From NCBI RefSeq assembly GCF_029338395.1, contig NZ_CP119813.1, positions 1-64,000 of the forward strand: 64,000 nt of DNA, read 5' to 3'. The translations under genes and the position numbers were made by a program. The stretch comes from Halorussus caseinilyticus. GTDB taxonomy: Archaea > Halobacteriota > Halobacteria > Halobacteriales > Haladaptataceae. Under the pieces are notes generated by a model that did no database searches, was not told where the DNA came from, and saw only the letters and a list, made by a program, of their open reading frames with translations. Below are positions 1-64,000 of this stretch, piece after piece. The stretch's first letter is position 1. Every line of letters starts with the position of its first letter.

Positions 1-126
1 TTCGGAGGCGATCCAGTTTGCGGTCCGTGGCTCTGACAACTGACGCGCGACCATCCGTACTCGATCCTCACCGGTTGTCTGGCGTTCCATGAGTCCTTTG
101 TCGGAATTCGATTCATCGGTGGTCAT
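1..126 (-). CDS. HTH regulator of the DUF7342 type, N-terminal part only
   Basis: The ATG is at 126 and the frame stays open to the window edge, giving the first 42 residues only. The stretch RVRMVARQLSEPRTANWIA is the start of a winged-helix domain of the kind haloarchaeal plasmids carry. Two related regulators lie in this window at 50.8-51.4 and 52.6-53.1 kb, each followed at once by a small HxH-motif protein, so a similar partner may lie just outside the window. Family assignment rests on resemblance in a short segment. Confidence 0.6.
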   Translation of the reverse strand, partial: MTTDESNSDKGLMERQTTGEDRVRMVARQLSEPRTANWIASE

Positions 127-39618: not shown

Positions 39619-39870
39619 TTATTCGATGTCGACGCCCCAGGCGTCGTGGTCGGTAGTTACGTCTGTTTCTGTGTCTCCATCGTAGCCCTCGAAGTCACTA
39701 AATGTGCCTGTCCGTTGCTGAATGACGTGGACGCGGATACTGCCATCTTTTTCGATGTGCCAGCGTAGCTGGTCACCGTCGTCAATTCCGAGTTCTCGCC
39801 GGATTCGGGCAGGGATGTTTGCTTGGTTGCCCGAGACCTTGCTCTCGGCGTCGATACGGTCACTACTCAT
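39619..39870 (-). CDS. vapB: AbrB-type antitoxin VapB
   Basis: 83 residues from ATG 39870. The swapped-hairpin AbrB fold is visible in ESKVSGNQANIPARIRRELG, then DGDQLRWHIEKDGSIRVHVI. The acidic tail (FEGYDGDTETDVTTDHDAWG) should bind the toxin. Probably represses its own promoter, which lies in the A/T-rich DNA upstream. Confidence 0.85.
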   Translation of the reverse strand: MSSDRIDAESKVSGNQANIPARIRRELGIDDGDQLRWHIEKDGSIRVHVIQQRTGTFSDFEGYDGDTETDVTTDHDAWGVDIE

Positions 39871-39982
39871 GGTCAGTAGAGGGAACTCTATCGTTAAAAA
39901 GGTAGTGTGGAGGCACACTATGGTCTGCTTGAGGCAGCAAGTATAGTAGGATTTTGATAACGAACACGTCTTCGTTAACCAT

Positions 39983-40441
39983 TTATACGTCTCCGCTTGC
40001 TAATCGGTCGATGAATTCACGCTGTTGGCGTTTCCGCTCGTCGACCGTTGATTCGTACTCTTTCTCGATTTGCTCGTAGTATGTCTCGACGGCCTGTTCG
40101 TCGCCAGTTAGCAGGAGACCGTCTTGGAGAGCGGCGTGTGCGACGGCAGTCGGGAGTTGCTCGATATCGCTTACGTCCACAAACTCCTCGGCATACTGCT
40201 GGAGGTCCGGATCGATTTGGTTTCGCAGTCGGAATCGTTCCCGAGCGTCCAACGTCTCCGGGAAACGGAGTGCGATGTCCACGTCTGAGTCTGGTCCAGC
40301 AGTTCCGCGTGCGTGCGAACCGAAGAGAATCGCAAAGACGACTCGCTGTTGGTCGAGATACGACCGCAGTCGGTCGAGCTTGACGCGTTCGACCGCGGAG
40401 TCGTCTGTATGCACCATACATACGTGTTCATCGTCCCGCAT
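39983..40441 (-). CDS. MNT-type nucleotidyltransferase paired with an RHH-like gene
   Basis: 152 residues from ATG 40441; MVHTDD at residue 12 is an alternative start. The signature is FAILFGSHARG followed by PDSDVDIALRFPE. MNT proteins of this kind normally precede a HEPN gene, but no HEPN follows. Instead a ribbon-helix-helix-like gene lies 19 bases upstream on the same strand. The C-terminal half is helical (EQAVETYYEQIEKEYESTVD). Confidence 0.8.
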   Translation of the reverse strand: MRDDEHVCMVHTDDSAVERVKLDRLRSYLDQQRVVFAILFGSHARGTAGPDSDVDIALRFPETLDARERFRLRNQIDPDLQQYAEEFVDVSDIEQLPTAVAHAALQDGLLLTGDEQAVETYYEQIEKEYESTVDERKRQQREFIDRLASGDV

Positions 40442-40460
40442 AATATAGTTGTGCTGCCGA

Positions 40461-40706
40461 TTAGTCGAAGCGCTTGCCGAGTTCACGGACCTCGGCAGTA
40501 TCCTCTTCCTCTGGTATCTTGATCGCGTCCCGCATCTCACCCACCTGCTCATTGTCGAAGACATCCTGAAGGTCACGGAGCGAACGGTTGTCGATGAGGC
40601 GCTCGATGGTATCACTAAACGACTCTCCCTCCTGTCTATTTGCTTTGATGCGCTCGTAGAGGTCGTCAGCAAGCTGAACGTGGCGCGACATCCTTGTCGA
40701 CGACAT
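40461..40706 (-). CDS. Small VapB-like antitoxin (ribbon-helix-helix type)
   Basis: 81 residues, or 76 from MSRHVQL. HVQLADDLYERIKANRQEG and ESFSDTIERLIDNRSLRDLQ match the RHH antitoxins that in haloarchaea usually precede a PIN toxin. Here the next gene is an MNT protein. The tail (IPEEEDTAEVRELGKRFD) is of the toxin-binding kind. Confidence 0.78.
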   Translation of the reverse strand: MSSTRMSRHVQLADDLYERIKANRQEGESFSDTIERLIDNRSLRDLQDVFDNEQVGEMRDAIKIPEEEDTAEVRELGKRFD

Positions 40707-40805
40707 TGCCGCCGAAGTTGAATCAGTTTTTGGGTCACCTACGAAATCCCTCCGCTGATACTCTCTGGGACCGGTTCAGTGACACGTTTCTTCCGGTAAG
40801 ACGCG

Positions 40806-41195
40806 TCACACCGTTCGATCCTCAATTGGCTCAAGAGTCCGAAGGTCTGCTCGCAGGACGTCGCCATGCCGGACGACGTATCGAACGGCAAGCACCGGGA
40901 ACCGACACTTGGTGAACCCGACTGTCTGAATATCGAGTTCGTCGCCCACCTCGACGTACGCTGCGAGTGCTCGAAGGAATTCGTGGGTCCGCTGTCCTGC
41001 TTCATAGTCGGGCAAGCCGTTTTCTCGACGTCCGTAGACCTCGAATGCGTCGTAGCCCCAAATCGAGAATCGGTCGTTGTCGTCAACCTCCCAGTCGAGC
41101 GTTCCGAAACAGTATGATTCGCAGAGTCCTTGAACTGCCTGTGCATCTGTGATAGTGACACCGTTCGACGTTGTTGCTGCTTGGAGTGTTGCCAT
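40806..41195 (-). CDS. Hypothetical plasmid protein with leader hairpin
   Basis: 129 residues, W/Y-rich in the first half (YCFGTLDWEVDDNDRFSIWG, then FEVYGRRENGLPDYEAG) and hydrophobic in the second (FLRALAAYVEVGDELDIQTV). No family recognised. It starts 24 bases after a leader hairpin, like other genes of this region. Confidence 0.7.
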   Translation of the reverse strand: MATLQAATTSNGVTITDAQAVQGLCESYCFGTLDWEVDDNDRFSIWGYDAFEVYGRRENGLPDYEAGQRTHEFLRALAAYVEVGDELDIQTVGFTKCRFPVLAVRYVVRHGDVLRADLRTLEPIEDRTV

Positions 41196-41218
41196 GTTTT
41201 TCGGGCAGGGAATGCTGT

Positions 41219-41237
41219 CCCCGCACCCTTTCGGGGG
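41219..41237 (-). promoter_or_regulatory. 5' leader hairpin, gene at 40.8-41.2 kb
   Basis: CCCCG (41219-41223) pairs with CGGGG within 41232-41237, followed on the plus strand by an A-run; 24 bases before the start at 41195. Confidence 0.55.
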
Positions 41238-41406
41238 TTGAAAAACACATCGTAATCGACGGTCTCAATCAGATTTACTTCTGCGCGACCTCGGCGAGTT
41301 TCAATGGTGAGTCTCTATTTCGGAGGACGAAACAGAGTATTCTCGTAGTGGAGGAACTCTTTGTCGGGTTTTCAAGTACGGGTGGTCCTACCATACTTGT
41401 AAATAG

Positions 41407-43119
41407 ATGGATGTCTCGTACCAGAACGCGAATGTCTACGCTGGCAATGAGTCGACCCTCTTGCGATTTCACACGAACGACGGGACGACTGCGTGCATCC
41501 TCATCGATGCCGGAGACGGCGTTGATTTAGACGCCCTCCTCGCTGACGACGAGTACCTCAACGCGATACTGCTCACACACGGCCATATCGACCACTATCG
41601 GACACTTGGCGATAACGTTCGCCACAACGCGCCAATTTATACGGCCCCCGCAACAGCGACGATTGTCGAGCGCGCACTCCCCGAAGCCCAGAAACACAAC
41701 GACCTCGGGACTGTCTCGGACGCACTCAACGCGCTCGAACCAATCGAGGACTGGACCGCTATCCTGCCGAACCTCGAAGTTCGTCCAATTCCTGTCGGGC
41801 ACACGCCCGGTGCTGTTGGATTCGTCATTCGGTTCCACGACGAGGCGAGCGCTAACTCGACATTCGACGACGAAATGCAGTATCTCCTCGCAACGGGTGG
41901 CTTCACGACTCGGCCCTGCGCGGGGTTTCCTGGACTGGAGACGGCCTTGCCGGTCGATATCGATGCCGTCCTGCTGAACGTTGCGACGACCGACGAGTCC
42001 ACGCCTCACCTCAACGATTCATTGCGAACGATTCTCGAACGCGGGTTCGCTGGATCGCCTGTCGTCGTCGCTACGAGCGCACTGACGGGCGTTCACTACG
42101 CGACGCTCCTCGGCCACTTAGTCAACGAACTTGACCGGACACTTCCGATTCGGCTCGTCGGTCAAACCGCGAAACTCTGGGACGACCTTGACTTCGATAC
42201 GCCGAACGTCGAATCACAGTGGGTTTTCTCTGAGCCGTCGGAGGTACTGGACTCGGGTGCAATCACGATTTGTGGTCCTGACGAGCCTGTCCGAGGCAAT
42301 GCCAAGCGATTGTTCGGGGCTATCGAGGACGACCCCTCTGCGGTGTTCGTCCAACTTACGACGGGCGGGGCTGAGCCTGCTTCTAGCGGGTCGTGTACGA
42401 CCCACGCATTCGAGGTCATCAACCATCCGACGCCCGAGACGCTTGACGAGACCGTCGCGGAGTTAGCGCCACAGCACGTCGTCATCAAGCATGCGACGGG
42501 TGGGGAGTTGAATCGGTTCCAGAAGCGCTACGACGAATGTTTCACGTGGGGCACCAACGACGACCACGAGCATACTCTCTACGAGGCGGGAGAATGGGTT
42601 GCTCCGGGCTGGCTCACAGACCGGGTCGTCCAAAAAATTCGGATGCAACAATGGCAGGCGCTCAGCGACAAACCCGTTGCCACCCGAGAGAGCTTTCCAA
42701 CTCCCGAGCGAACACCGGTCGATGTAGCGGCGGAAGGTGTGGCCGTTGACGAATTTCGAGACCAATTCTCTACTCAATCGATTGAGACTGACCACGATGG
42801 TCGAACTAGTGGCCCGTCTGCTTCGACTAAAAATCAAGAATTACACCCAGAAACGACTCAAGACGTACGCGACGACCCAGCGGCGGCGAGTTCGCCGGAC
42901 CCTGAGACGGACTCGTTCGAATCGACGGTGTTGACTCGGTTGGACGCTATCGAGTCGAAGCTCGACGCCAAGGTCGCGACTGAGACGGTGACGGCACAAG
43001 TATTGAGTGGGGATGGGCAGACGTTCCTGCAAGTCTTGGACGAAACTGACCTCCCACCGGGACAGATGGTCGAACTGCAAATTCGTGAAGCTACAAGCGA
43101 AGACGACTCTTCGTCGTGA
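41407..43119 (+). CDS. MBL-fold (beta-CASP-like) metallohydrolase, plasmid type
   Basis: 570 residues. The metallo-beta-lactamase motif is LLTHGHIDHYR (about residue 60), with other metal-site candidates PVGHTPGAVGF and LLATGGF. An insert follows (ATSALTGVHYATLLGHLVNE), as in beta-CASP nucleases, and HVVIKHATGGELNRFQKRY resembles a late histidine motif. The last 130 residues form an acidic linker and a predicted coiled coil (LTRLDAIESKLDAKVATETV). Known members process RNA or DNA, but this plasmid subfamily is not characterised to my knowledge. Intact gene. Confidence 0.72.
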   Translation: MDVSYQNANVYAGNESTLLRFHTNDGTTACILIDAGDGVDLDALLADDEYLNAILLTHGHIDHYRTLGDNVRHNAPIYTAPATATIVERALPEAQKHNDLGTVSDALNALEPIEDWTAILPNLEVRPIPVGHTPGAVGFVIRFHDEASANSTFDDEMQYLLATGGFTTRPCAGFPGLETALPVDIDAVLLNVATTDESTPHLNDSLRTILERGFAGSPVVVATSALTGVHYATLLGHLVNELDRTLPIRLVGQTAKLWDDLDFDTPNVESQWVFSEPSEVLDSGAITICGPDEPVRGNAKRLFGAIEDDPSAVFVQLTTGGAEPASSGSCTTHAFEVINHPTPETLDETVAELAPQHVVIKHATGGELNRFQKRYDECFTWGTNDDHEHTLYEAGEWVAPGWLTDRVVQKIRMQQWQALSDKPVATRESFPTPERTPVDVAAEGVAVDEFRDQFSTQSIETDHDGRTSGPSASTKNQELHPETTQDVRDDPAAASSPDPETDSFESTVLTRLDAIESKLDAKVATETVTAQVLSGDGQTFLQVLDETDLPPGQMVELQIREATSEDDSSS

Positions 43120-46176: not shown

Positions 46177-47037
46177 TCAGGGAAGTGAAATCTCCTCGGC
46201 TAGCGAGACGTCCGAGCCATCTCGCTCGACAACTCCCTTTTCAGCTAAATTGGTGACTGCCTTCCGGACAGTTTCTGGCCGGTCAATGGAGTCGTCGTTG
46301 TCTGTAACTTTACGGCACAGAATCTCAATTTCGAGAGAGCCAGTTTGGAGGTGCTCGATGACGGTACGCTCGGTGAAGGCACGGTCTGCGAGTGCTTCGA
46401 CTTGGTCGGTGAACTCCGAGGGAAGCCCATCGAATCGCGTGATTGTCTGCTCAAACGTCATGAGTGGATGAGAGTAGCTGTACAATTGGTGGGCCTCGAC
46501 GGTCCCTGTATTGACTGGGAGTTGTGCCTCAAGCTCTTCTCCGACGACACTAAACTGCAGGCCAGACCGCACAAGCGCGAGCATATCCTCCGGATCGTAT
46601 CCACGACCTGCAACGCCTTTCAGGAGGAACATATCTTCTTTCGAGAGCGTGAAGCCAGCAACTGATTCTCCCCCATATATTTGCTCTGCGCGTTCGCGCA
46701 TCTCCGTCGAGAGCCGAAGCTTCCCGACGATCTGCTCCTCGAACAAGTCCACCTGAACACCCGTCTCACCAGCCAACTCTAATGTCCGTCCAATATCCTC
46801 GAACTCTGCGGTCGGCTCATTCTCAACGACAAACCCCATATCGAGGAGAGCATCTCGAACGAGTTCGAATTCTGCGGAAACGCCGAGCACGAGGTCAATA
46901 TCTTTCGTCTGATCTTTCAATTGGTGTGCGGTCATCGCGCTTCCGCCGACGAGATAGACCTTGACGCTCTGGTCAAGCTGGTCATCCACGTCTTGGAGGA
47001 ATTCGGTGATTGCCTCACGGCCACTAAACGGACTCAT
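46177..47037 (-). CDS. AbiEii-like nucleotidyltransferase (toxin candidate)
   Basis: 286 residues. KVYLVGGSAMTAHQLKDQTK, then DIDLVLGVS, is the nucleotidyltransferase GGS and DxD signature, with VDLFEEQIVGKLRLS and FTLSKEDMFLLKGVAGR as in AbiEii-type proteins. The C-terminal part is a winged helix (ETVRKAVTNLAEKGVVERDG). Its ATG overlaps the stop of the upstream regulator by 4 bases (ATGA). Such pairs act as type IV toxin-antitoxin systems in phage defence. AbiE identity is inferred from layout. Confidence 0.75.
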   Translation of the reverse strand: MSPFSGREAITEFLQDVDDQLDQSVKVYLVGGSAMTAHQLKDQTKDIDLVLGVSAEFELVRDALLDMGFVVENEPTAEFEDIGRTLELAGETGVQVDLFEEQIVGKLRLSTEMRERAEQIYGGESVAGFTLSKEDMFLLKGVAGRGYDPEDMLALVRSGLQFSVVGEELEAQLPVNTGTVEAHQLYSYSHPLMTFEQTITRFDGLPSEFTDQVEALADRAFTERTVIEHLQTGSLEIEILCRKVTDNDDSIDRPETVRKAVTNLAEKGVVERDGSDVSLAEEISLP

Positions 47038-47972
47038 GATGTCTCCTCGTATTGCTGTTTAAGAGCCTCAAAATCACGTGTATTCGGAATATACTCGGAG
47101 CTAGTTGGGTCACCGTGGAGGAACGAAAGCATATCTTCGATGAGTCCAGTTACGCCGTACTCCGTTGCAGTTGCGCGTAATTGGTCTTCGTCAAATGCGG
47201 TCGTCGTCAGTAGGAGGAGTGCGTAGCTTGTCCGCCGGCTGTCGGTCTTGGCGACGAGGGTGTGACAGACAAGTTGTTCGACAGTAATCTTGGTGTCGAG
47301 TTCGGAGTAGAAGACCGGCGGTTGGTTCGCGCCGAAGAACGTGAGGCCGTACTCTTCGTACCGTGCAAGCCCTGATACTGCCCAATTATCCGTATCTACG
47401 AGCTGTTCTCGGTCCTGTTTCGCTTCGACGGACACGAGTGCTTCCGCGGGGGTACTCCACAGAACGACTGCGCTTGGGGCGTCTTCTCTCGCTCGGTGTG
47501 CGTGTTCGTGGTCGACGAATGCCCGAGCAAATTCGACGAGGTCCGTGAGGTCGTCTGCAATCTTGTACTGGGTTCCGTCTTTGGTAAGCATTGCACGCTC
47601 TTGCAGTGGTGCAAGGAGTTGGTAGACCCGCTGGCGTGTTATCGGGAGTCGGTCTGCAATCTCGCTGACTTTCCGGGGTTGGTCCAGAAACCAGCAGACA
47701 TGGAGGGTGCGTCGAGAGAGAATCTCCGAAAAATCGATATGGGGGTGTTGGCTTTGGAGTCGCCGGTAGGCGCGAAACACGGCTGTTTCGGTGGCTGAAA
47801 CCACTCTTCGATTGCGATTCCCGCGTTTCGTCACGACAAGGCCGTTCTGCTCTAACTCTTCGACCACTTCGTGGACGCGGCCCATGCTATAGCCCGTTTG
47901 CTCGTGAAGGGCTGTAATCGATTGGTCCTCGGTCAATACGTCGAGGACTCGAAGATGCGCTTCCCCCATCAT
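47034..47972 (-). CDS. Two-HTH transcription regulator, AbiEi-like antitoxin candidate
   Basis: 312 residues from the first of two ATG codons at 47972. Winged helix 1: DQSITALHEQTGYSMGRVHE. Winged helix 2: LSRRTLHVCWFLDQPRKVSE, then ITRQRVYQLLAPLQERAML. The C-terminal half (AVVLWSTPAEALVSVEAKQD) is of the AbiEi kind. A TATA-like box sits about 30 bases upstream, which fits a leaderless transcript. Overlap of 4 bases with the nucleotidyltransferase gene. The same two-HTH layout is seen in the broken regulator at 33.8 kb. Confidence 0.78.
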   Translation of the reverse strand: MMGEAHLRVLDVLTEDQSITALHEQTGYSMGRVHEVVEELEQNGLVVTKRGNRNRRVVSATETAVFRAYRRLQSQHPHIDFSEILSRRTLHVCWFLDQPRKVSEIADRLPITRQRVYQLLAPLQERAMLTKDGTQYKIADDLTDLVEFARAFVDHEHAHRAREDAPSAVVLWSTPAEALVSVEAKQDREQLVDTDNWAVSGLARYEEYGLTFFGANQPPVFYSELDTKITVEQLVCHTLVAKTDSRRTSYALLLLTTTAFDEDQLRATATEYGVTGLIEDMLSFLHGDPTSSEYIPNTRDFEALKQQYEETS

Positions 47973-48172
47973 CTGGTAAGAGATACTAAAACAGTATATA
48001 AGAGTCTTCGGCTTTAGTTTACAAATTCCGATTTCGGGGTTCGTTTTAGCCGCCACTACTCGAATATCGAGTCGTTGGTTGCTCCACGGTATCTCGGGCT
48101 TCATGCACCCCTCAGGGAGAACGAAAAACTCACCGCGGTCACTCCGTCACGTTCCCTGGCTAGCTCGGGCAC

Positions 48173-48676: not shown

Positions 48677-49951
48677 ATGCGAAGCTTCGATGAGGCCGAC
48701 AAACTCTACGACGACATTGACGCCTTAGAGCCAGACACCGAGACCTATCGTCCAAAAGACCTCCCCGAACGCGAAGACGAACTGGACGAACTCCACTCCG
48801 CCCTCGAACCAATCGCCCGCGGTGGCACACCCCGTGACGTACTCATTTACGGCCCCACAGGACAGGGCAAAACTCACGGCGTCAAACTCAAAACTGAACA
48901 ATTGCAGGAGTGGGCCGACAGAAACGATGTGGCTCTCACGACGGCCAACGTCCAGTGCAAAGGGTCCGACAAATCCTACAACGTCCTTACGCTCCTCGTC
49001 AAACAACTCCGGGAAGTTCGATTCGGTCCTGGCGTGGACAAGCCCGTTGGCCACCAGCGGAAGACACTCGTAGAAATGGCCTTCGAAGAGATGGAAGAAA
49101 TCGGCGGGACGATTCTCGTTGTCCTTGATGAGATCGACGCTATCGGCGAAGACGATTATATCCTCTACGAACTCCCGCGAGCGAATCTCGACAACACCAA
49201 ACTCGGCGTTATCGGCATCACCAACGACCTCCAATTCCGCGATAGTCTCGATGCAGACGTACGCTCGTCACTCGGCAAGCGAGAAATCACCTTCCACCCT
49301 TACGACGCCAACCAACTCAAGAACATCCTTGCCCGACGCGCCGTGAAAGCCCTCCAAGACACCAAGTTCGAAGGCAACAAGAAGAAGCTTGCCGCGTTGG
49401 AGAGCGATGTCCTCAGCGACGACGTGATTCCGCTCTGCGCGGCGTTTGCGGCCCAAGACACGGGCGACGCTCGACAGGGACTCAGGCTTCTCTCCCGGTC
49501 TGTTGAGTTGGCGAAGAAAGAAAACGACGAGGTAGTCACCGAATCCCACGTCCGGAAGGCGAAGGCTGGAATCGAGCGCGACCGAGTTGGGCAAAGCATT
49601 CGCGCGGAGACCACCCAGCGGAAGCTGGCGCTCTTGACTGTGGTCGAGGCCGCCGAGAACGGCGAAACGCCCGCCGAGACAAGTGATCTCTACGAGAAGT
49701 ACACTGACTACTGTGAGACCATCGACGCCGATAACTACATTGACCACACCTTTCGAGAGAAGCTAAACGACCTCGAACACTCCGGCCTCTTGGAGAAAAA
49801 CCGAACCGGGCGAGGGCACGGCAAGGGCATGACGAACACCTACGACCTACAGGTCAGCACCGAGACCGCCTTCGAGAATTTGTCCGCCGATGGACGCCTG
49901 AGCAAACTCGTTGAAAATATCCGGTCCGGCCGAAAGAAAAGTACACTCTAA
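48677..49951 (+). CDS. orc1: Orc1/Cdc6 replication initiator (intact)
   Basis: 424 residues. Walker A LIYGPTGQGKTHGVKLK, Walker B ILVVLDEIDAIGEDD, sensor LGVIGITNDLQFRDS, arginine-finger region SSLGKREITFHPYDANQLKN, and a C-terminal winged helix (HTFREKLNDLEHSGLLEKNR). It is an origin-binding AAA+ initiator next to its own repeat set. Its boxes (CACTCTAAC) differ from the GGAAACGAGGGG boxes of the first, broken orc1, so each initiator probably served its own origin. Confidence 0.9.
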   Translation: MRSFDEADKLYDDIDALEPDTETYRPKDLPEREDELDELHSALEPIARGGTPRDVLIYGPTGQGKTHGVKLKTEQLQEWADRNDVALTTANVQCKGSDKSYNVLTLLVKQLREVRFGPGVDKPVGHQRKTLVEMAFEEMEEIGGTILVVLDEIDAIGEDDYILYELPRANLDNTKLGVIGITNDLQFRDSLDADVRSSLGKREITFHPYDANQLKNILARRAVKALQDTKFEGNKKKLAALESDVLSDDVIPLCAAFAAQDTGDARQGLRLLSRSVELAKKENDEVVTESHVRKAKAGIERDRVGQSIRAETTQRKLALLTVVEAAENGETPAETSDLYEKYTDYCETIDADNYIDHTFREKLNDLEHSGLLEKNRTGRGHGKGMTNTYDLQVSTETAFENLSADGRLSKLVENIRSGRKKSTL

Positions 49952-50348: not shown

Positions 50349-50798
50349 TCACTCCCAGAACGCTTCGATTCGGTCGTCTAAGTCCTCAAGAACGCTTGAG
50401 AGTATATCCCGCCAGTCGCTGGCGTACTCTGCATCGTCACCGGGCGTCGTTGCATCTGGCGGTGGGTGAAAGTGCGAGCGAGTGTTGTGGCTGTTCGGAT
50501 GGCGGTCCCACCGACACTCCCACTGGTCGTCATCGGTGTACTGCTCGGAGTAGTGGACGCTGAAATCGTCTGTCTCGTACCAGCGAATCTGGAGATACGC
50601 CCGGTCGATAGCCGCCGGAAAGTACCCCCTATCGTACTCTGCCACGACGGAACTGGGCGCATAGTCTGGCTGGAACACGACCTCTGAGAACCGCTGACTT
50701 CGTTCGAGGTGCTGTCCGATCTGTTCGAGAATCTCAGTATCGATGCCACCAACAGTCTCCGCGACGTCCTCGTCGTCACCTGGCCGGTCGTCAGGCAT
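50349..50798 (-). CDS. HxH-motif small protein, partner of the 50.8 kb regulator
   Basis: 149 residues from ATG 50798, overlapping the regulator stop by 8 bases. The core QWECRWDRHPNSHNTRSHFH followed by PPPDA has several His, Arg and Asp residues that could form an active site. The same core is found in the paralogue at 52.1 kb. N-terminal FQPDYAPSSVVAEYDRGYFP and C-terminal VLEDLDDRIEAFWE also match. I know no characterised member. Coupling to an HTH regulator suggests a toxin-antitoxin or regulatory pair. Confidence 0.7.
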   Translation of the reverse strand: MPDDRPGDDEDVAETVGGIDTEILEQIGQHLERSQRFSEVVFQPDYAPSSVVAEYDRGYFPAAIDRAYLQIRWYETDDFSVHYSEQYTDDDQWECRWDRHPNSHNTRSHFHPPPDATTPGDDAEYASDWRDILSSVLEDLDDRIEAFWE

Positions 50799-51399
50799 CG
50801 ACTCTGGCACCACCACTCGACGGATGGCCGTTCTGCCGCGCCGTATCTAACAGCTCTGCCCGTCGCTCCAGTGTTTTCCATTCACTCACTGCTTCCCATA
50901 CTTCTTCGACCGACGACTCTCCAGCATCGTCCACGAGCGACACCTCATCCGGACTGTCGGCATTGAATCGCGCCCGGTACTCCTCAAGCTGCGCCATCGT
51001 CTCTTTGAGTTCCTTGACGATGTCACTCTCGGAGTACTGTTCTCGAATCTGTTCGATTCTACGCCACCGTAGATACGACTCGTTTCGCTCGTATCTCACC
51101 GGCCGCCCCGGAATCTCGCGCGTCATCCCCATCGAAGTGAACCATTCGAGGTAGTCACGCGCGGTCTCGGTATCGCAGTCTGCTTTGTCTGCGATTTCCG
51201 CGACCTTGGTTGGTGTACGGAGTTGTAAGATGACACCGAGCAGTCGTTCTCGCGTTGGACCACCTTTCAGGACCTCTTCGGGTGCATCCCATTCGGTGAA
51301 ATCTGGTGGTTCCTCGTCCGGGTCTCGAACGTCGTCGGGGGTGTTAGTCAAGTCCATCACTATCCTCTTGTTTGCTAACCGTTCGGCAGTATCGGTCAT
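50791..51399 (-). CDS. HTH regulator, DUF7342 type (module 1)
   Basis: 202 residues. LQLRTPTKVAEIADKADCDT followed by ETARDYLEWFTSMGMTREIP is the winged helix, with a wing RPVRYERNESYLRWRRI. A coiled C-terminal region (IVKELKETMAQLEEYRARF) could mediate dimerisation or partner binding. Followed on the same strand with an 8-base overlap by the HxH protein. Paralogous to 52.6-53.1 kb and to the fragment at 1-126. Probably autoregulates the pair. Confidence 0.8.
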   Translation of the reverse strand: MTDTAERLANKRIVMDLTNTPDDVRDPDEEPPDFTEWDAPEEVLKGGPTRERLLGVILQLRTPTKVAEIADKADCDTETARDYLEWFTSMGMTREIPGRPVRYERNESYLRWRRIEQIREQYSESDIVKELKETMAQLEEYRARFNADSPDEVSLVDDAGESSVEEVWEAVSEWKTLERRAELLDTARQNGHPSSGGARVDA

Positions 51400-51455
51400 A
51401 TATCTATCGCACGCTGAATTATTTCTGCTTCATGTAGCGGAGCTTGTCGCTCCGC

Positions 51456-51947
51456 TTAGTAGTGAACGTCTGCTGGGACAATCCAGAGATTCTCATCCTC
51501 GTCGAGGATGCGGTCAAGCTGGTCTCGATGCCGAATACCGCTGCCGTGTTCGTCATACAGGAAGATGGTGGGGCCGTCGTACGCGCCAACTTGGTGGAAC
51601 GCATGCCGGGCAAGTCCGTCGTCGCGCATAATCTCCTCGTCGCTTAGTTCCTCGAGTGCGTCCCGGACGCGGTTGAGGTTTCGCTCGAACTCGCTCTTCG
51701 TCGCCTCCCACCCACGCTCCAGCAATTCCTGACCATCGTCGGATTCCACAGGAACTGCTACTGGAAGGTCACCCCACCGAGCTTTCCCAGCGACTGACGT
51801 GCCCGACTCATCAAATGTCACGTAATAGTCGAACACCGCATCTGCGTGTGGGCTGCCCCCGACGAGTCGGTCGAACACCGTCTTTCCAGTTACAAGTGCG
51901 TCGTCTTGTGTCGATGCCTCTACCAGCGAGTAAATTACCATATGCAT
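51456..51947 (-). CDS. Hypothetical protein of the VEAST/LYDE family
   Basis: 163 residues. MHMVIYSLVEASTQDDALVT at the start, TIFLYDEHGSGIRHRDQLDR near the end, then ENLWIVPADVHY. The same blocks appear in the larger 54.2-55.1 kb protein, so the two are homologous. No function is known to me. A third copy survives as a 13-codon remnant at 48.17 kb. Confidence 0.68.
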   Translation of the reverse strand: MHMVIYSLVEASTQDDALVTGKTVFDRLVGGSPHADAVFDYYVTFDESGTSVAGKARWGDLPVAVPVESDDGQELLERGWEATKSEFERNLNRVRDALEELSDEEIMRDDGLARHAFHQVGAYDGPTIFLYDEHGSGIRHRDQLDRILDEDENLWIVPADVHY

Positions 51948-52086
51948 TGGTTCTCACTTCGATCTGCCGACGCACGCGACTACACATCGCGCTACTGACT
52001 GTTGCGCTGGCACTCATCGCCGGCGCTCGAAAAACTACGGTTGAGATTGATCATTTAACAGAGAAGAAGTCGGGGCAGACCTGTCG

Positions 52087-52124
52087 TTAACCAATAAACC
52101 TGGTATCTGCAGTATGTTGGTTAA
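52087..52124. repeat. Inverted repeat family, copy D
   Basis: TTAACCAATA (52087-52096, one mismatch to the family) and TGTTGGTTAA (52115-52124), spacer 18 bases. It ends at the base before the stop codon of the module-2 HxH gene. Confidence 0.75.
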
Positions 52125-52574
52125 CTATTCAGATGACCACAGGCTCTCAAGCCGTTGCTCTATCGCGGTAAACACGGTTGAGTACACTTCGAGTGGATGG
52201 AGTGAGGAAAGTTCAAGATCCGTAATCTCGGTCGCAGTTGGGGGCTGATGGAAGTGCAACCGTGCGTTGTGCGTGTTTGGATGGCGATCCCAGCGACACT
52301 CCCACTGGCCCTCTTCGTCGTGTTCTTCGACATAATGAATCGAGAAATCACCAGTCGTAAACCATCGGATGTCGAGACGAACCGCTGTCACCGAGTCTGG
52401 GTATCGTCCGGTATCAAGTTGTGCTTGGAGCAGACGGGGTTCGTACGAATCGGGGTCGAATGCTGTCTCGGCGACGAGCGCATCTGACGCGAGGTGTCGC
52501 TCTAGAAGGCGCAACGTCTGTTTGTCCGGTGGCCCTGTTGAGTCAGGTACTGGGTCCTCTGGGGGCTGACTCAT
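52125..52574 (-). CDS. HxH-motif small protein, partner of the 52.6 kb regulator
   Basis: 149 residues. QWECRWDRHPNTHNARLHFH followed by QPPTA matches the 50.3 kb paralogue, as do RLDIRWFTTGDFSIHYVEEH and the end FTAIEQRLESLWSSE. Its ATG follows the regulator stop without a gap (TAGATG). Same genetic arrangement as module 1, with divergent sequence outside the core, so the core is under constraint. Confidence 0.7.
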   Translation of the reverse strand: MSQPPEDPVPDSTGPPDKQTLRLLERHLASDALVAETAFDPDSYEPRLLQAQLDTGRYPDSVTAVRLDIRWFTTGDFSIHYVEEHDEEGQWECRWDRHPNTHNARLHFHQPPTATEITDLELSSLHPLEVYSTVFTAIEQRLESLWSSE

Positions 52575-53102
52575 CTATGCTGGAATCAGATGGCCGTCGT
52601 TTTGGGAGAGTTGGCGAGCGAGTTCGTACAGCCGAATATCCCGAATCACGCCTTGCCACTCGCTGACCGCTGTCATCCGTTCGTGGATGGTTTCATGATT
52701 GTCGTAGTCGAACACAGAGACATCTGCCGGGTCTGTCGTCCCGAACTGGGACTCGTATTCAGCGCGTTGTTCTTCGAGTGCTTTCACACGGTCAATGATC
52801 TCCTCGAGAGTGAGTTCGTCTGCGATTCGGCTGGCGTCCTGCCATTCGAGATACCCCTCGTTTCGTTCGTACGTTGGCGGACGACTGTCTCTGTCTGCGC
52901 GGACGATACCCATCTCCGTCAAACGGTCAAGATGCTTTTTTGCGGCGTTCGAAGAGCAATCGGCGAGCTCTGCGATCTCGGTATACGTCGTTGGCGACGT
53001 AATCCCGAGGATGACATCGTAGACACGGCCAAACGTGTCCGTTCCTTCCTGCCATCGCCGTTGCGAACCCTCGGATTCTGGGGCTGGATCAAACTCGGTC
53101 AT
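52575..53102 (-). CDS. HTH regulator, DUF7342 type (module 2)
   Basis: 175 residues. PTTYTEIAELADCSSNAAKK followed by HLDRLTEMGIVRADRD is the winged helix, with the wing PPTYERNEGYLEWQDASRI. EEIIDRVKALEEQRAEYESQ is the coiled region. Directly followed by the HxH gene. Copy E of the TTAACCAACA repeat lies 182 bases upstream of the start. Confidence 0.8.
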   Translation of the reverse strand: MTEFDPAPESEGSQRRWQEGTDTFGRVYDVILGITSPTTYTEIAELADCSSNAAKKHLDRLTEMGIVRADRDSRPPTYERNEGYLEWQDASRIADELTLEEIIDRVKALEEQRAEYESQFGTTDPADVSVFDYDNHETIHERMTAVSEWQGVIRDIRLYELARQLSQNDGHLIPA

Positions 53103-53478
53103 AACTGACTATACGCAGTCGCGCTCAATATATCTTTGCTTTCTTCAAATATATGCGTGAGTTGGTCTGTTGGTAGGACAACAAATACCCTTGGCATTGA
53201 TCCGTAGCGAACTTTGACTCGTTCCCTATCTCCTCTACCAATTCAACCATCTAATTGAGGGAAGGCCGTGAATCAGTCTGCAGTTAACCAACAAACGCCG
53301 AAATACGCGCTCGTCTGTTGGTTAACAGTAGAGGGTAGCACGATTTCTTCATTCAGAATCACCGATGTAACCGATGCTCGATTTGGGGAAGCGACGTATG
53401 ACACGACTGGTTTGTCTATAGGATTTGCTACAAACGGCGTGCAAGATTTAGAGCATAAGTACAGCACAACGTCTGTTC
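53103..53478. other. Non-coding stretch with inverted repeat copy E
   Basis: Holds the promoter of the module-2 regulator (A/T-rich around 53110-53160) and copy E. I see no gene. Confidence 0.5.
53284..53325. repeat. Inverted repeat family, copy E
   Basis: TTAACCAACA at 53284-53293 and TGTTGGTTAA at 53316-53325, spacer 22 bases, arms flanked on both sides by CAG. Confidence 0.85.
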
Positions 53479-54240: not shown

Positions 54241-55131
54241 CTACTTGCCCACTTTGGGTTCTGGCCCGTATCGAGGCATTCCGCAGACGTGACACTCCCA
54301 CATTGGCTGGCCACTCCACTCGTCGTCAGGGACAGTCTCGAAGTCAAGGAATCGGTGCCTCGTATTGCGGTCGCATTCACGACACTCTAATTGTCTCCTG
54401 TTCGGTCGCTCGCGTTGCTGGCTATCAGTTGTGGCGTCCTCGACAGATTGCTGGAGTGCAATCGCAGGTACTAGCCACATGTCGTCTGCGTCCTCAAGAA
54501 GCGCCACAAGACGATTTTCGTCATGAACGCCACGTCCACTTTCGTCGTAGAGGAACGTCGCATGTTCGCCGTCGTGATGCAACTGCGTCGTGTCCTGCCA
54601 CTCCGTCAGTTCACGGGCAGTCTCGAGTAGCTGTCTACCCGAGTTGGACGTAACTCGTACTGCCTCAGAGAGCGAAGGCCACTTGTCGGCAAGTTGTGAT
54701 GCAGGCTCTTCGTCGAACTCGGAAATCAGCTGGCAGTCGTCGACTGCGGAGTCTCTGTCGGCCTTCGCGAGGAGGCCCGCGGCGGCAGTCCCCTTCGCGA
54801 CGGCGCTGTCGAACGTTGATGCTTCCACGACGAAATGAACGACGTGAAGCAGTGTCCACTCGGTATCCGAACTTGATTGTTCCTCCTTGGAGCTATTGAG
54901 ATGGTTCACAAGACAGAACCTGCACTTTGTCCGCTCCGCAGGGATTGATACTCCACAGGAGGAACACTCGCTCTCTGTTGCTGTCGTTTCGTTTGGATAT
55001 CTTGTAGCGACTGCATCTAGTCGCTGTTGACTAGGCTCCTCGTCACTACTATTGGAGAGTTTGTCGTCGGGAACATGCGTTGCTTCGCCGAGCGGCCGAA
55101 GTTCTTCATGGTCAGAGTTCCGCTGAGTCAT
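54241..55131 (-). CDS. Zinc-ribbon protein with a VEAST/LYDE domain
   Basis: 296 residues. A first Cys pair set (CSSCGVSIPAERTKCRFC) is a zinc ribbon. The middle (HVVHFVVEASTFDSAVAKGT and ATFLYDESGRGVHDENRLVA, then DMWLVPA) is homologous to the 51.5 kb protein. The C-terminus has a second zinc site (CRECDRNTRHRFLDFETVP, then CHVCGMPRYG). So a domain known here as a separate gene occurs fused between two metal-binding ends. Function unknown. Confidence 0.65.
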   Translation of the reverse strand: MTQRNSDHEELRPLGEATHVPDDKLSNSSDEEPSQQRLDAVATRYPNETTATESECSSCGVSIPAERTKCRFCLVNHLNSSKEEQSSSDTEWTLLHVVHFVVEASTFDSAVAKGTAAAGLLAKADRDSAVDDCQLISEFDEEPASQLADKWPSLSEAVRVTSNSGRQLLETARELTEWQDTTQLHHDGEHATFLYDESGRGVHDENRLVALLEDADDMWLVPAIALQQSVEDATTDSQQRERPNRRQLECRECDRNTRHRFLDFETVPDDEWSGQPMWECHVCGMPRYGPEPKVGK

Positions 55132-61521: not shown

Positions 61522-64000
61522 ATGGATATCCAGCAGATTACCGCGGCCGACGTCGCGGGCTGGACCTCGCTCGAGGATATCTCTACGTCTCTCCAGAAGC
61601 GGGGTCTCGTCCCCCGTGAGGATCTCGGCGAGGACGACGAGTTAGTGATGGAACTAGACGACGATCAGTTCGTCTCCATCATCGAAGCCGGACCGACGCA
61701 GGACGCGAAGTCGTTCACGAACCGAATGACCTACCGCCGGCACACGAACCTCGTCTCGACCAACGAGTTCGAGGAGTTCACCTTCATTTCGCGGCGGCGT
61801 TCATTCGGGGAAGCTGGCCGGATCTCCTATCAGCAGTTCTCATTCGATCGGAGTGCCTTTGAAGATGGTGGGAGTCGCTTCTCGGTGCTCGACAAACTCA
61901 ACGAGATCGAGTACGGCGACGGGCAGTCAGTCCAAGCGCTATACGACACCCGAGAAGTCGTCAAGGAATTTTACACCAAGTTCGAGTCGCTGCGGACGGA
62001 CCTGGTGACGGAAGTTGCGAGGATCCCTGACGACCGCGGTGACGCGAAACAGCGCTACGTGCAAGTACTGATGGACCGTCTCATCTTCTTGTATTTCATC
62101 CAGAAAAAGAACCTCCTCGACTTCAACACGGACTACCTCCTCGAGAAGCACTCGGAGTACGTCGACGAGGGGGAGGACGTGTACGAAGAGTTTTTCGACC
62201 CGCTTTTCTTCGAGGTGTTGGCGGAGAACAAGAAGGCCGAAGGATTCGGCACGGTGCCGTACCTCAACGGTGGGTTGTTCTCAACGACGCCTGTCGAGGA
62301 AGAGTTCCCGGAGGTGAAACTCGGCGAGACTACAGAAGAGACAAACGAACTATTCGGTGAGATTCTAGAGTTCCTCGACGGCTGGAACTGGCACGTCGAC
62401 GAACGGCTCGACATTGTCGAACCGAAGAACATCTCGCCAGAGATCCTCGGCCACATCTTTGAGCAGACTGTCAACCAAAAGGAGATGGGGGCGTACTACA
62501 CGCCTGCAGAGATCACCGACTACATGGCTCGGGAGACGATTCATCCGTATCTCCTTGACCAATTGAACGAGGACGTTGGGACGTCCTACGAGTCTATTGA
62601 CGAGCTGTTCGGACTGGCCAGCGAAACTGATGGTGCAGCAGATGTGGCGCTCGCTGATGGTGGCGCCGTCGCACAAATCGGGGCAGTGGATTCGATCCAG
62701 CGAGAGCACGTCGAGACGCTGTATTTCGAGCATCTCCAGGAAGGGCGTGTCATCGACCCCGCGGTCGGGAGTGGGGCGTTCCTTCTTGCGGCCCAGGACG
62801 TGCTCTTAGACGTCTATCTGAGCTGTTTGGAGTACTTCGAAGCGCTGCCGGCGTTCGAGCGCACGCCTGCCATCGAAGAGGCGCTAGAGGAGGTGGAACA
62901 CTCTGGGAGCAAGACGCTGTACGCCAAGCGGGAGATCATCCTCAACAACCTGTACGGGGTGGATATCGATGACGGGGCCGTTGAGATCTGCAAGCTCCGG
63001 TTGTGGTTGTCGATGGTCGCCGACATTGAAAACGATCCCGATGAAGTCGAGCCACTGCCAAACATCGACTTCAACATCCGCCAAGGGAACTCGCTGATCG
63101 GGTATATCGATAAGCTTCCGTCGGCCTCAGATGGGGCGACCACCTTCGGCGACTTCTCCGTCCAGAAGAAGTTCCAGCAGGTGATCGAGGCGGTTCACAA
63201 GCATCGGGCGGCGACGACGAGTTCCGACGCGGCGAACTGGCGACGGATCGCTGAAGAGCGAATGAGTAAGTATCGAACGGATCTCGACGAGGACCTCGCG
63301 CAGCGGTTGCGGGACGCTGGGATGGAAGAAATGGACGCCGAGACGCTACAGGAATTCGACTCCTTCCACTGGATCGTCGAGTTCGCCGAAGTAATGGACG
63401 ACGGTGGATTCGACGTGGTGATTGGGAATCCGCCGTGGGAGGTTCTGAGTCCGAATCGCAGTGACTTCTTTTCGAAGTACGACGAGCGCTTCCGAACGTA
63501 CAACGCCGACCGAAAAGACGAGGTGGAGGAAGAGCTGCTCGCCGACGAGTCGATCAAATCCGGGTGGGAAGAGTACCAGCGCGGGATGGAACAGCGAGCA
63601 GAGTACTTTAACACCGCACCGGACTACAGTCTGCAGTCCCCATCAGTCAACGGGCGGCACGTAGCCAGTGAGAATGACCTCTCGGCGTTGTTCTTAGAGC
63701 GGACGTTCGGGTTGGTATCGGCGTCCGGGTGGACGAGCCTAATCCTACCCGGCTTCGTGTTTACAGGTGCTATTGCAAAGGATTTGCGTCAGCATCTGCT
63801 TGATGAGACGACGCTCCAGACGACCATCGGGTTCGAGAACAAGGGCATATTCGGTCAAATTGATGACCGGTACCGCTTTGGGATCCTCACCTTCAAGAAC
63901 AGCGGTGAGACTGAGGGGGTAAACGGCGTTTTCGCACAAACCTCAACCGATATCCTCCAGACAATAGAGGAGGATGCAGCCTATATCCCGCGACGTGTCC
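61522..64000 (+). CDS. Eco57I-class adenine methyltransferase/restriction protein, 3' end outside
   Basis: The ATG at 61522 opens 826 codons to the window edge. An N-terminal part (DIQQITAADVAGWTSLEDIS and FTFISRRRSFGEAGRISYQQ) is followed by the target GAYYTPAEITDYMARETI, the SAM motif VIDPAVGSGAFLLAAQDV, VDIDDGAVEICKLRLW, and the catalytic GNPPWE. These define an N6-adenine methyltransferase of the type found in IIG/IIL enzymes and in PglX of BREX. Fusion with a nuclease cannot be judged because the C-terminus and neighbours are missing. It pairs divergently with the Mrr-like gene. No frameshift seen. Confidence 0.88.
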   Translation, partial: MDIQQITAADVAGWTSLEDISTSLQKRGLVPREDLGEDDELVMELDDDQFVSIIEAGPTQDAKSFTNRMTYRRHTNLVSTNEFEEFTFISRRRSFGEAGRISYQQFSFDRSAFEDGGSRFSVLDKLNEIEYGDGQSVQALYDTREVVKEFYTKFESLRTDLVTEVARIPDDRGDAKQRYVQVLMDRLIFLYFIQKKNLLDFNTDYLLEKHSEYVDEGEDVYEEFFDPLFFEVLAENKKAEGFGTVPYLNGGLFSTTPVEEEFPEVKLGETTEETNELFGEILEFLDGWNWHVDERLDIVEPKNISPEILGHIFEQTVNQKEMGAYYTPAEITDYMARETIHPYLLDQLNEDVGTSYESIDELFGLASETDGAADVALADGGAVAQIGAVDSIQREHVETLYFEHLQEGRVIDPAVGSGAFLLAAQDVLLDVYLSCLEYFEALPAFERTPAIEEALEEVEHSGSKTLYAKREIILNNLYGVDIDDGAVEICKLRLWLSMVADIENDPDEVEPLPNIDFNIRQGNSLIGYIDKLPSASDGATTFGDFSVQKKFQQVIEAVHKHRAATTSSDAANWRRIAEERMSKYRTDLDEDLAQRLRDAGMEEMDAETLQEFDSFHWIVEFAEVMDDGGFDVVIGNPPWEVLSPNRSDFFSKYDERFRTYNADRKDEVEEELLADESIKSGWEEYQRGMEQRAEYFNTAPDYSLQSPSVNGRHVASENDLSALFLERTFGLVSASGWTSLILPGFVFTGAIAKDLRQHLLDETTLQTTIGFENKGIFGQIDDRYRFGILTFKNSGETEGVNGVFAQTSTDILQTIEEDAAYIPRRV

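Follow-up and report, generated by a model that had tools for sequence, protein, structure and literature searches.

Paired DUF7342 and HxH genes of Halorussus caseinilyticus: candidate toxin-antitoxin modules with a putative toxin remotely related to TumE

TumE-TumA (PF20126, formerly DUF6516; Durairaj et al. 2023, PMC10584680) is a bicistronic system that couples a toxin to a DNA-binding-type partner. TumE, whose fold packs two helices against an antiparallel sheet of seven strands, causes growth arrest and reduced protein synthesis and is neutralised by diverse partners (PMC10584680). Pfam states no function for the winged-helix family DUF7342 (PF24033), and we found no mention of it in the literature searched. 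Here, we analyse a window of 64,000 nucleotides, comprising positions 1-64,000 of contig NZ_CP119813.1 (hereafter C5; 145,234 bases of a 4.39-Mb genome) from the haloarchaeon Halorussus caseinilyticus (family Haladaptataceae, order Halobacteriales, phylum Halobacteriota; assembly GCF_029338395.1). The window carries two gene pairs, each encoding a DUF7342 regulator and a small histidine-rich protein that we term HxH. We propose that each pair is quite probably a type II toxin-antitoxin module in which HxH, a remote relative of TumE, serves as the putative toxin.

Two paralogous gene pairs

Both modules lie on the minus strand at 50349-53102 and, as read from their open reading frames, place the regulator gene before the HxH gene:

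50349-50798, minus strand: HxH1, TumE-like putative toxin, 149 amino acids from an ATG start (open reading frame; weak Pfam match to TumE)
50791-51399, minus strand: regulator 1, DUF7342 winged-helix protein, putative antitoxin/autorepressor (PF24033, 88.6 bits)
52125-52574, minus strand: HxH2, TumE-like putative toxin, 149 amino acids (open reading frame; 39% identity to HxH1)
52575-53102, minus strand: regulator 2, DUF7342 winged-helix protein, putative antitoxin/autorepressor (PF24033, 85.1 bits)

An earlier reading of the sequence without database searches (the sequence-only reading) had described a DUF7342-type regulator directly before a 149-residue protein, twice, with the genes overlapping by 8 bases in module 1 (ATG start) and abutting without a gap in module 2. 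This layout is confirmed, and both regulators score far above the Pfam cut-off of 31.6 bits across nearly the whole profile, which makes them full members of DUF7342. The conserved core noted in that reading, DRHPN-x-HN-x-R-x-HFH-x-PP, is likewise present in both HxH proteins amid otherwise diverged sequence (E 1e-37 for the pair). The regulators are 35% identical to each other, and we regard the two gene pairs as paralogous by sequence comparison. An unrelated gene at 51456-51947 separates them, so they do not form one tandem unit. Both HxH genes are under purifying selection, with dN/dS of 0.03-0.13 for HxH1 and 0.06-0.22 for HxH2.

Two of the start sites admit alternatives. A GTG at 50816 would extend HxH1 to 155 amino acids (50349-50816); we prefer the ATG because a matching M-P-[ED] begins the diverged relatives. 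The six-residue extension is kept in close relatives only, and there it overlaps the regulator gene, so its retention is weak evidence for the longer form. For regulator 1, an ATG at 51357, 14 codons downstream of the start listed above, is kept in relatives, some of which have no upstream ATG, and is likely the true start.

Pairing and co-evolution of DUF7342 and HxH

In 28 genomes of the family, the positions of every DUF7342 match with E of 1e-8 or lower were set against those of every HxH match. At 85 of 94 HxH places, a DUF7342 gene immediately precedes HxH in the same orientation, an arrangement with a chance expectation of about 0.0004 per gene. The nine unpaired matches, judged by individual reading or by stops in the search table, are all truncated, interrupted or fused into another gene, and two of them retain a broken DUF7342 remnant upstream. 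These genomes thus hold no intact putative toxin gene without its putative antitoxin gene, as is typical of type II modules. HxH genes commonly found without a regulator, which the sequence-only reading had named as the outcome that would speak against it, did not appear. In one genome (G142), a frame at L229:854-1684 (plus strand) fuses a transcription factor B-like N-terminal part to an HxH C-terminal part; the frame, which resembles a remnant of recombination, lies just upstream of a pair that is intact.

A second survey covered 79 loci of named genomes. A script paired 76 of 88, and inspection added five whose open frames extend upstream of the true start. At L141, a TnpB-type insertion-sequence gene sits between the two partners, and L158 carries an intact HxH without an intact DUF7342, of which a C-terminal remnant is kept. 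The other unpaired loci are partial (L131 and L132), a second weak match (L140), at a contig end (L093) or unexplained (L111). Distances between regulators track those between their partners (r = 0.97, 75 pairs; 1,000 permutations give at most 0.13), also within the two large subfamilies (0.81 and 0.96).

DUF7342 also occurs with a second kind of partner. The 28 genomes contain 47 DUF7342 places without an HxH match, and in most of those examined the same position holds a protein with the motif GWHxDxDHxDLGxxH[FI]Q. Its profile aligns to that of HxH over 129 columns (96%, E 1.8e-9), so DUF7342 appears tied to one partner superfamily of which HxH is one branch. The motif in the sequence-only reading is therefore real in both modules but is one subfamily's form, as others carry GWHxDxDHxDLGxxHFQ. 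DUF7342 genes without any superfamily partner are found at L201, L202, L221, L224 and C5:83715 (with a transposase-like gene beyond); such cases are expected if cells can retain a lone antitoxin gene but not a lone toxin gene.

Remote relationship of HxH to TumE

TumE is the commonest Pfam match among 43 members of the HxH family, found weakly in 22 of them (best E 1.7e-4). When the 43 HxH proteins were compared with 39 archaeal TumE proteins in hhalign, the profiles aligned at 81.5% (E 1.1e-5, score 36.5), bringing FSVHYSE..CRWDRHPN..HFHPPP of HxH onto YSYHWQD..IRWDNAPH..HHKH of TumE. Column-shuffled profiles (60) score at most 19.5 and reversed profiles 12 to 13. The confident core spans 35 columns and a relaxed alignment 94. 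The AlphaFold2 model of HxH1 (pLDDT 89, pTM 0.83) has a helix at 21-32, six strands plus a short seventh, and a helix at 129-148; at the level of secondary structure, it shares with TumE two helices and an antiparallel sheet of about seven strands. A model of this genome's own TumE has corresponding strands and a final helix in the same order. The two-gene operon with a putative partner antitoxin gene, as in TumE, recurs at the 85 paired places given above.

Several results weigh against this relationship. HxH1 reaches 17.1 bits against the Pfam TumE cut-off of 23.4 and HxH2 has no match, while the best score among the 43 relatives (L087) is 22.0 bits. A narrower hhalign comparison, with 16 haloarchaeal TumE proteins, returned 0.2%, and the GWHxDxDH branch compared directly with TumE gave 2%. 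Foldseek searches of BFVD and PDB with the HxH1 and TumE models yielded nothing with E below 0.001. In addition, in this genome's two canonical TumE pairs the toxin gene comes first and is followed by an HVO_A0114-type helix-turn-helix (HTH) gene.

An E2-like identity for HxH was considered and dropped. It had been suggested by Atg10, the top VIA-align row (Z 6.8), and by the HPN tripeptide, which HxH1 shares with E2 enzymes. Rows with Atg10 or other E2-like chains appear repeatedly in the structural search with HxH1 (Z 4 to 6.8), all within the range below 8 that the tool's own note treats as background. No E2 family matches in Pfam at E 1, and the TumE model does not return those rows.

Because HxH is remotely related to TumE yet stays under the Pfam cut-off, we regard it, on the profile evidence, as a sister family of this translation-blocking toxin rather than a member. 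The sequence-only reading had named no function for HxH; the family does have a known toxin, TumE, as a remote relative.

Candidate operators

Conserved elements precede the regulator genes of both modules:

51413-51428, minus strand: 16-bp imperfect dyad GCAGAAATAATTCAGC, candidate operator of module 1, conserved across genera
51398-51406, minus strand: TATA-like element TAGATATAT with a putative promoter role, 6 bases downstream of the dyad, with the same spacing in related loci
53127-53154, minus strand: ATATATTTGAAGAAAGCAAAGATATATT, conserved upstream element of module 2, found with 24 of 31 regulators

In relatives of module 1 from many genera, GCAGAAATAATTCAGC or a variant is followed after about 6 bases by TAGATATAT, ahead of the regulator. 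The 16-mer occurs, with at least 13 of its 16 positions matching, upstream of 41 of the 49 regulators scanned. Its symmetry ranges from imperfect to perfect: GCTGAA-ATAA-TTCAGC is the version in one genome, and a second genome carries the perfect dyad ACAGAATTAATTCTGT. Across 22 distinct versions, complementarity holds mostly or always at five of the eight mirrored positions; it is seen in half of the versions for the outermost pair, in a third for pair 3/14 and seldom for pair 7/10. These counts lean towards symmetry because the versions were chosen with a symmetric consensus. When up to one mismatch is allowed, the dyad occurs at only two sites in the whole 4.39-Mb genome, C5:51413-51428 and C1:2982413-2982428. 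The latter lies directly before a chromosomal DUF7342-HxH pair, so that both genomic sites precede such pairs.

A different element, ATATATTTGA..AAAGATATATT, marks module 2 and its relatives; it accounts for the 24 of 31 regulators (regulator 2 and the L136-L166 set) and is absent from shuffled sequences (0 matches). Such subfamily-specific elements fit binding by the DUF7342 regulator, although part of the upstream conservation may be core promoter.

Distribution and annotation

Of 293 sampled genomes of the order, 234 (about four fifths) carry HxH genes, and the copy number is patchy, from 0 to 13 in a single genome. A sample of the phylum contained 25 genomes with an HxH match, every one of them from the order and none from outside it; canonical TumE differs in being found both within the order and in many of the phylum's other groups. 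The closest relatives of the window's pairs are from Halorussus. Relatives of HxH2 occur on 138 plasmid records and, among the listed matches with an annotation at the matched position, are recorded as hypothetical protein. Searches of phage records found no HxH relatives, and none of 17 pattern matches in viral contigs was confirmed. Scans with PHROGs, PADLOC and NCBIfam gave no useful match to HxH, and sequence searches of PDB found no relative of either HxH or TumE.

Proposed mechanism and alternative explanations

Gene order, pairing, co-evolution, remote homology, the conserved upstream dyad and patchy copy number support a toxin-antitoxin module. The suggestion of a candidate toxin-antitoxin family in the sequence-only reading thus gains support from comparative data (85 of 94 places paired, r = 0.97, remote TumE homology), with toxicity itself a prediction. 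In the mechanism that we propose, the DUF7342 protein would be translated before the toxin from the same message; its C-terminal half would bind and neutralise HxH, and its winged-helix dimer would bind the promoter dyad and repress the operon. The toxin would be released on plasmid loss or stress; because it would outlive its antitoxin once the plasmid is lost, cells that keep the plasmid would be favoured. Free HxH would stop translation, acting on RNA through an active site formed by the RWD, HPN and HFH segments; this chemistry is the least certain step, as it is borrowed from TumE, itself only a proposed RNase.

Alternatively, the pair could be a two-gene regulatory unit in which DUF7342 is an autoregulated transcription factor and HxH a metal- or ligand-sensing co-factor. 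A winged-helix protein with a small histidine-rich partner and a conserved upstream dyad would fit such a unit, yet a harmless co-factor would have no need to be lost or broken in the absence of its regulator, and all nine unpaired HxH genes are truncated or broken. Intact regulators without an intact partner (L201 and L202, and a third regulator at the window edge whose partner is frameshifted, described below) and the remote homology to TumE also speak against it, and we consider it the least probable of the explanations weighed here. An anti-virus role, in which infection releases a TumE-like HxH killer from DUF7342 and plasmid maintenance takes second place, is a special case of the toxin-antitoxin explanation rather than a separate mechanism. 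Many toxin-antitoxin families act in abortive infection, and the high, patchy copy number of HxH agrees with such a role. We nevertheless judge it unlikely: PADLOC defence models do not match HxH, and the regulators match only the HTH part of Csa3-type models; the phage and viral searches confirmed no relatives; and both window copies adjoin an orc1/cdc6 gene on a plasmid.

Finally, the likeness to TumE could be convergence on a short His/Asp motif, with HxH adopting another alpha-beta fold and, if a toxin, using other chemistry. The short confident core, the failed comparison with the narrow TumE set and top structural rows that are Atg10/E2-like (Z 6.8) or frataxin-like (Z 6.2) are in its favour. 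Those Z values, however, fall within the tool's background and no E2 family is matched in Pfam; moreover, the shuffled and reversed controls score far lower than the real profiles, and in the relaxed alignment the order of strands and C-terminal helix agrees between the two families. Convergence is therefore improbable in our estimation. Somewhat less remote, if still doubtful, is a further option: the DUF7342 partners may constitute a haloarchaeal toxin superfamily of their own, comprising at least the HxH and GWHxDxDHxDLG branches, with a catalytic centre and target unlike those of TumE, a new antitoxin class and subfamily-specific operators.

The edge regulator and the replicon

The sequence-only reading had also placed the start of a third regulator at the window edge, and this is borne out:

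1-126, minus strand: third DUF7342 regulator, first 42 codons (34.6 bits; cut-off 31.6)

C5 repeats its own first ~41.67 kb at its end, such that window positions 1-41666 correspond to C5:103569-145234. Identity is 99.4% across 1,432 bases from C5:103569 and window position 1 onward, and 100% between C5:143234-145234 and window 39666-41666. This self-overlap makes a circular replicon of about 103.6 kb probable, and the third regulator is complete at C5:103191-103646 (minus strand). Its downstream partner belongs to the GWHxDxDHxDLG branch, a diverged branch of the HxH superfamily, and is broken by a frameshift. The first bases of C5 differ slightly from the internal copy, and the frameshift may for that reason be a sequencing error.

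A 399-amino-acid frame near the complete edge regulator resembles orc1/cdc6 (named from sequence alone), and modules 1 and 2 adjoin an orc1/cdc6 gene at 48677-49951, a position that fits plasmid maintenance. The same neighbourhood includes, at 46177-48104 (minus strand), a DUF6036-type nucleotidyltransferase gene whose upstream neighbour, overlapping it by 4 bases, encodes an HTH regulator with an HVO_2833_C domain; the two are a candidate toxin-antitoxin pair of another type.

Other features of the window include the gene between the modules (51456-51947, minus strand), which scores 57.8 bits to part of the NCBIfam model 'biosurfactant protein 1'. The product of 54241-55131 (minus strand) scores 448 bits against the same model (cut-off 320), and because both match it the two genes are probably partial paralogues. 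Also between the modules, 360 bases at 51679-52038 are 87% identical to G000:C4:48304-48662 on another replicon of the same genome. Lastly, a long open frame that leaves the window (61522-63999, plus strand) contains an NPPW segment that, by its letters only, is DNA adenine methyltransferase-like.

Significance and comparison with known systems

These comparisons lend good support to reading the DUF7342-HxH pairs as a widespread and unannotated group that adds a new branch to an already known kind of module. If the proposal is correct, very common haloarchaeal toxin-antitoxin modules are stored in databases as hypothetical proteins, DUF7342 gains a function, and the recently found TumE toxins are extended by a branch with a changed active site. 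The modules would also provide a named candidate operator that one gel-shift could check, natural plasmid-stabilising cassettes for haloarchaeal genetics and a concrete case for how haloarchaeal megaplasmids persist.

Relative to described systems, the pairs combine shared and distinct traits. HxH genes resemble TumE-TumA in being bicistronic with a DNA-binding-type partner; that partner is DUF7342, encoded first. The HVO_A0114-type winged-helix protein that accompanies haloarchaeal TumE is, like DUF7342, paired with a TumE-type toxin, but it belongs to another Pfam family, is shorter and is encoded downstream of the toxin. TumE and HxH have in common an alpha+beta fold, predicted for HxH, with two helices and an antiparallel sheet, and the motif [FY]-S-x-H-[YW] ... 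R-W-D ... H ... H-x-H. Within it, N-APHH of TumE is replaced by R-HPN in HxH, and HHKH by HFH.
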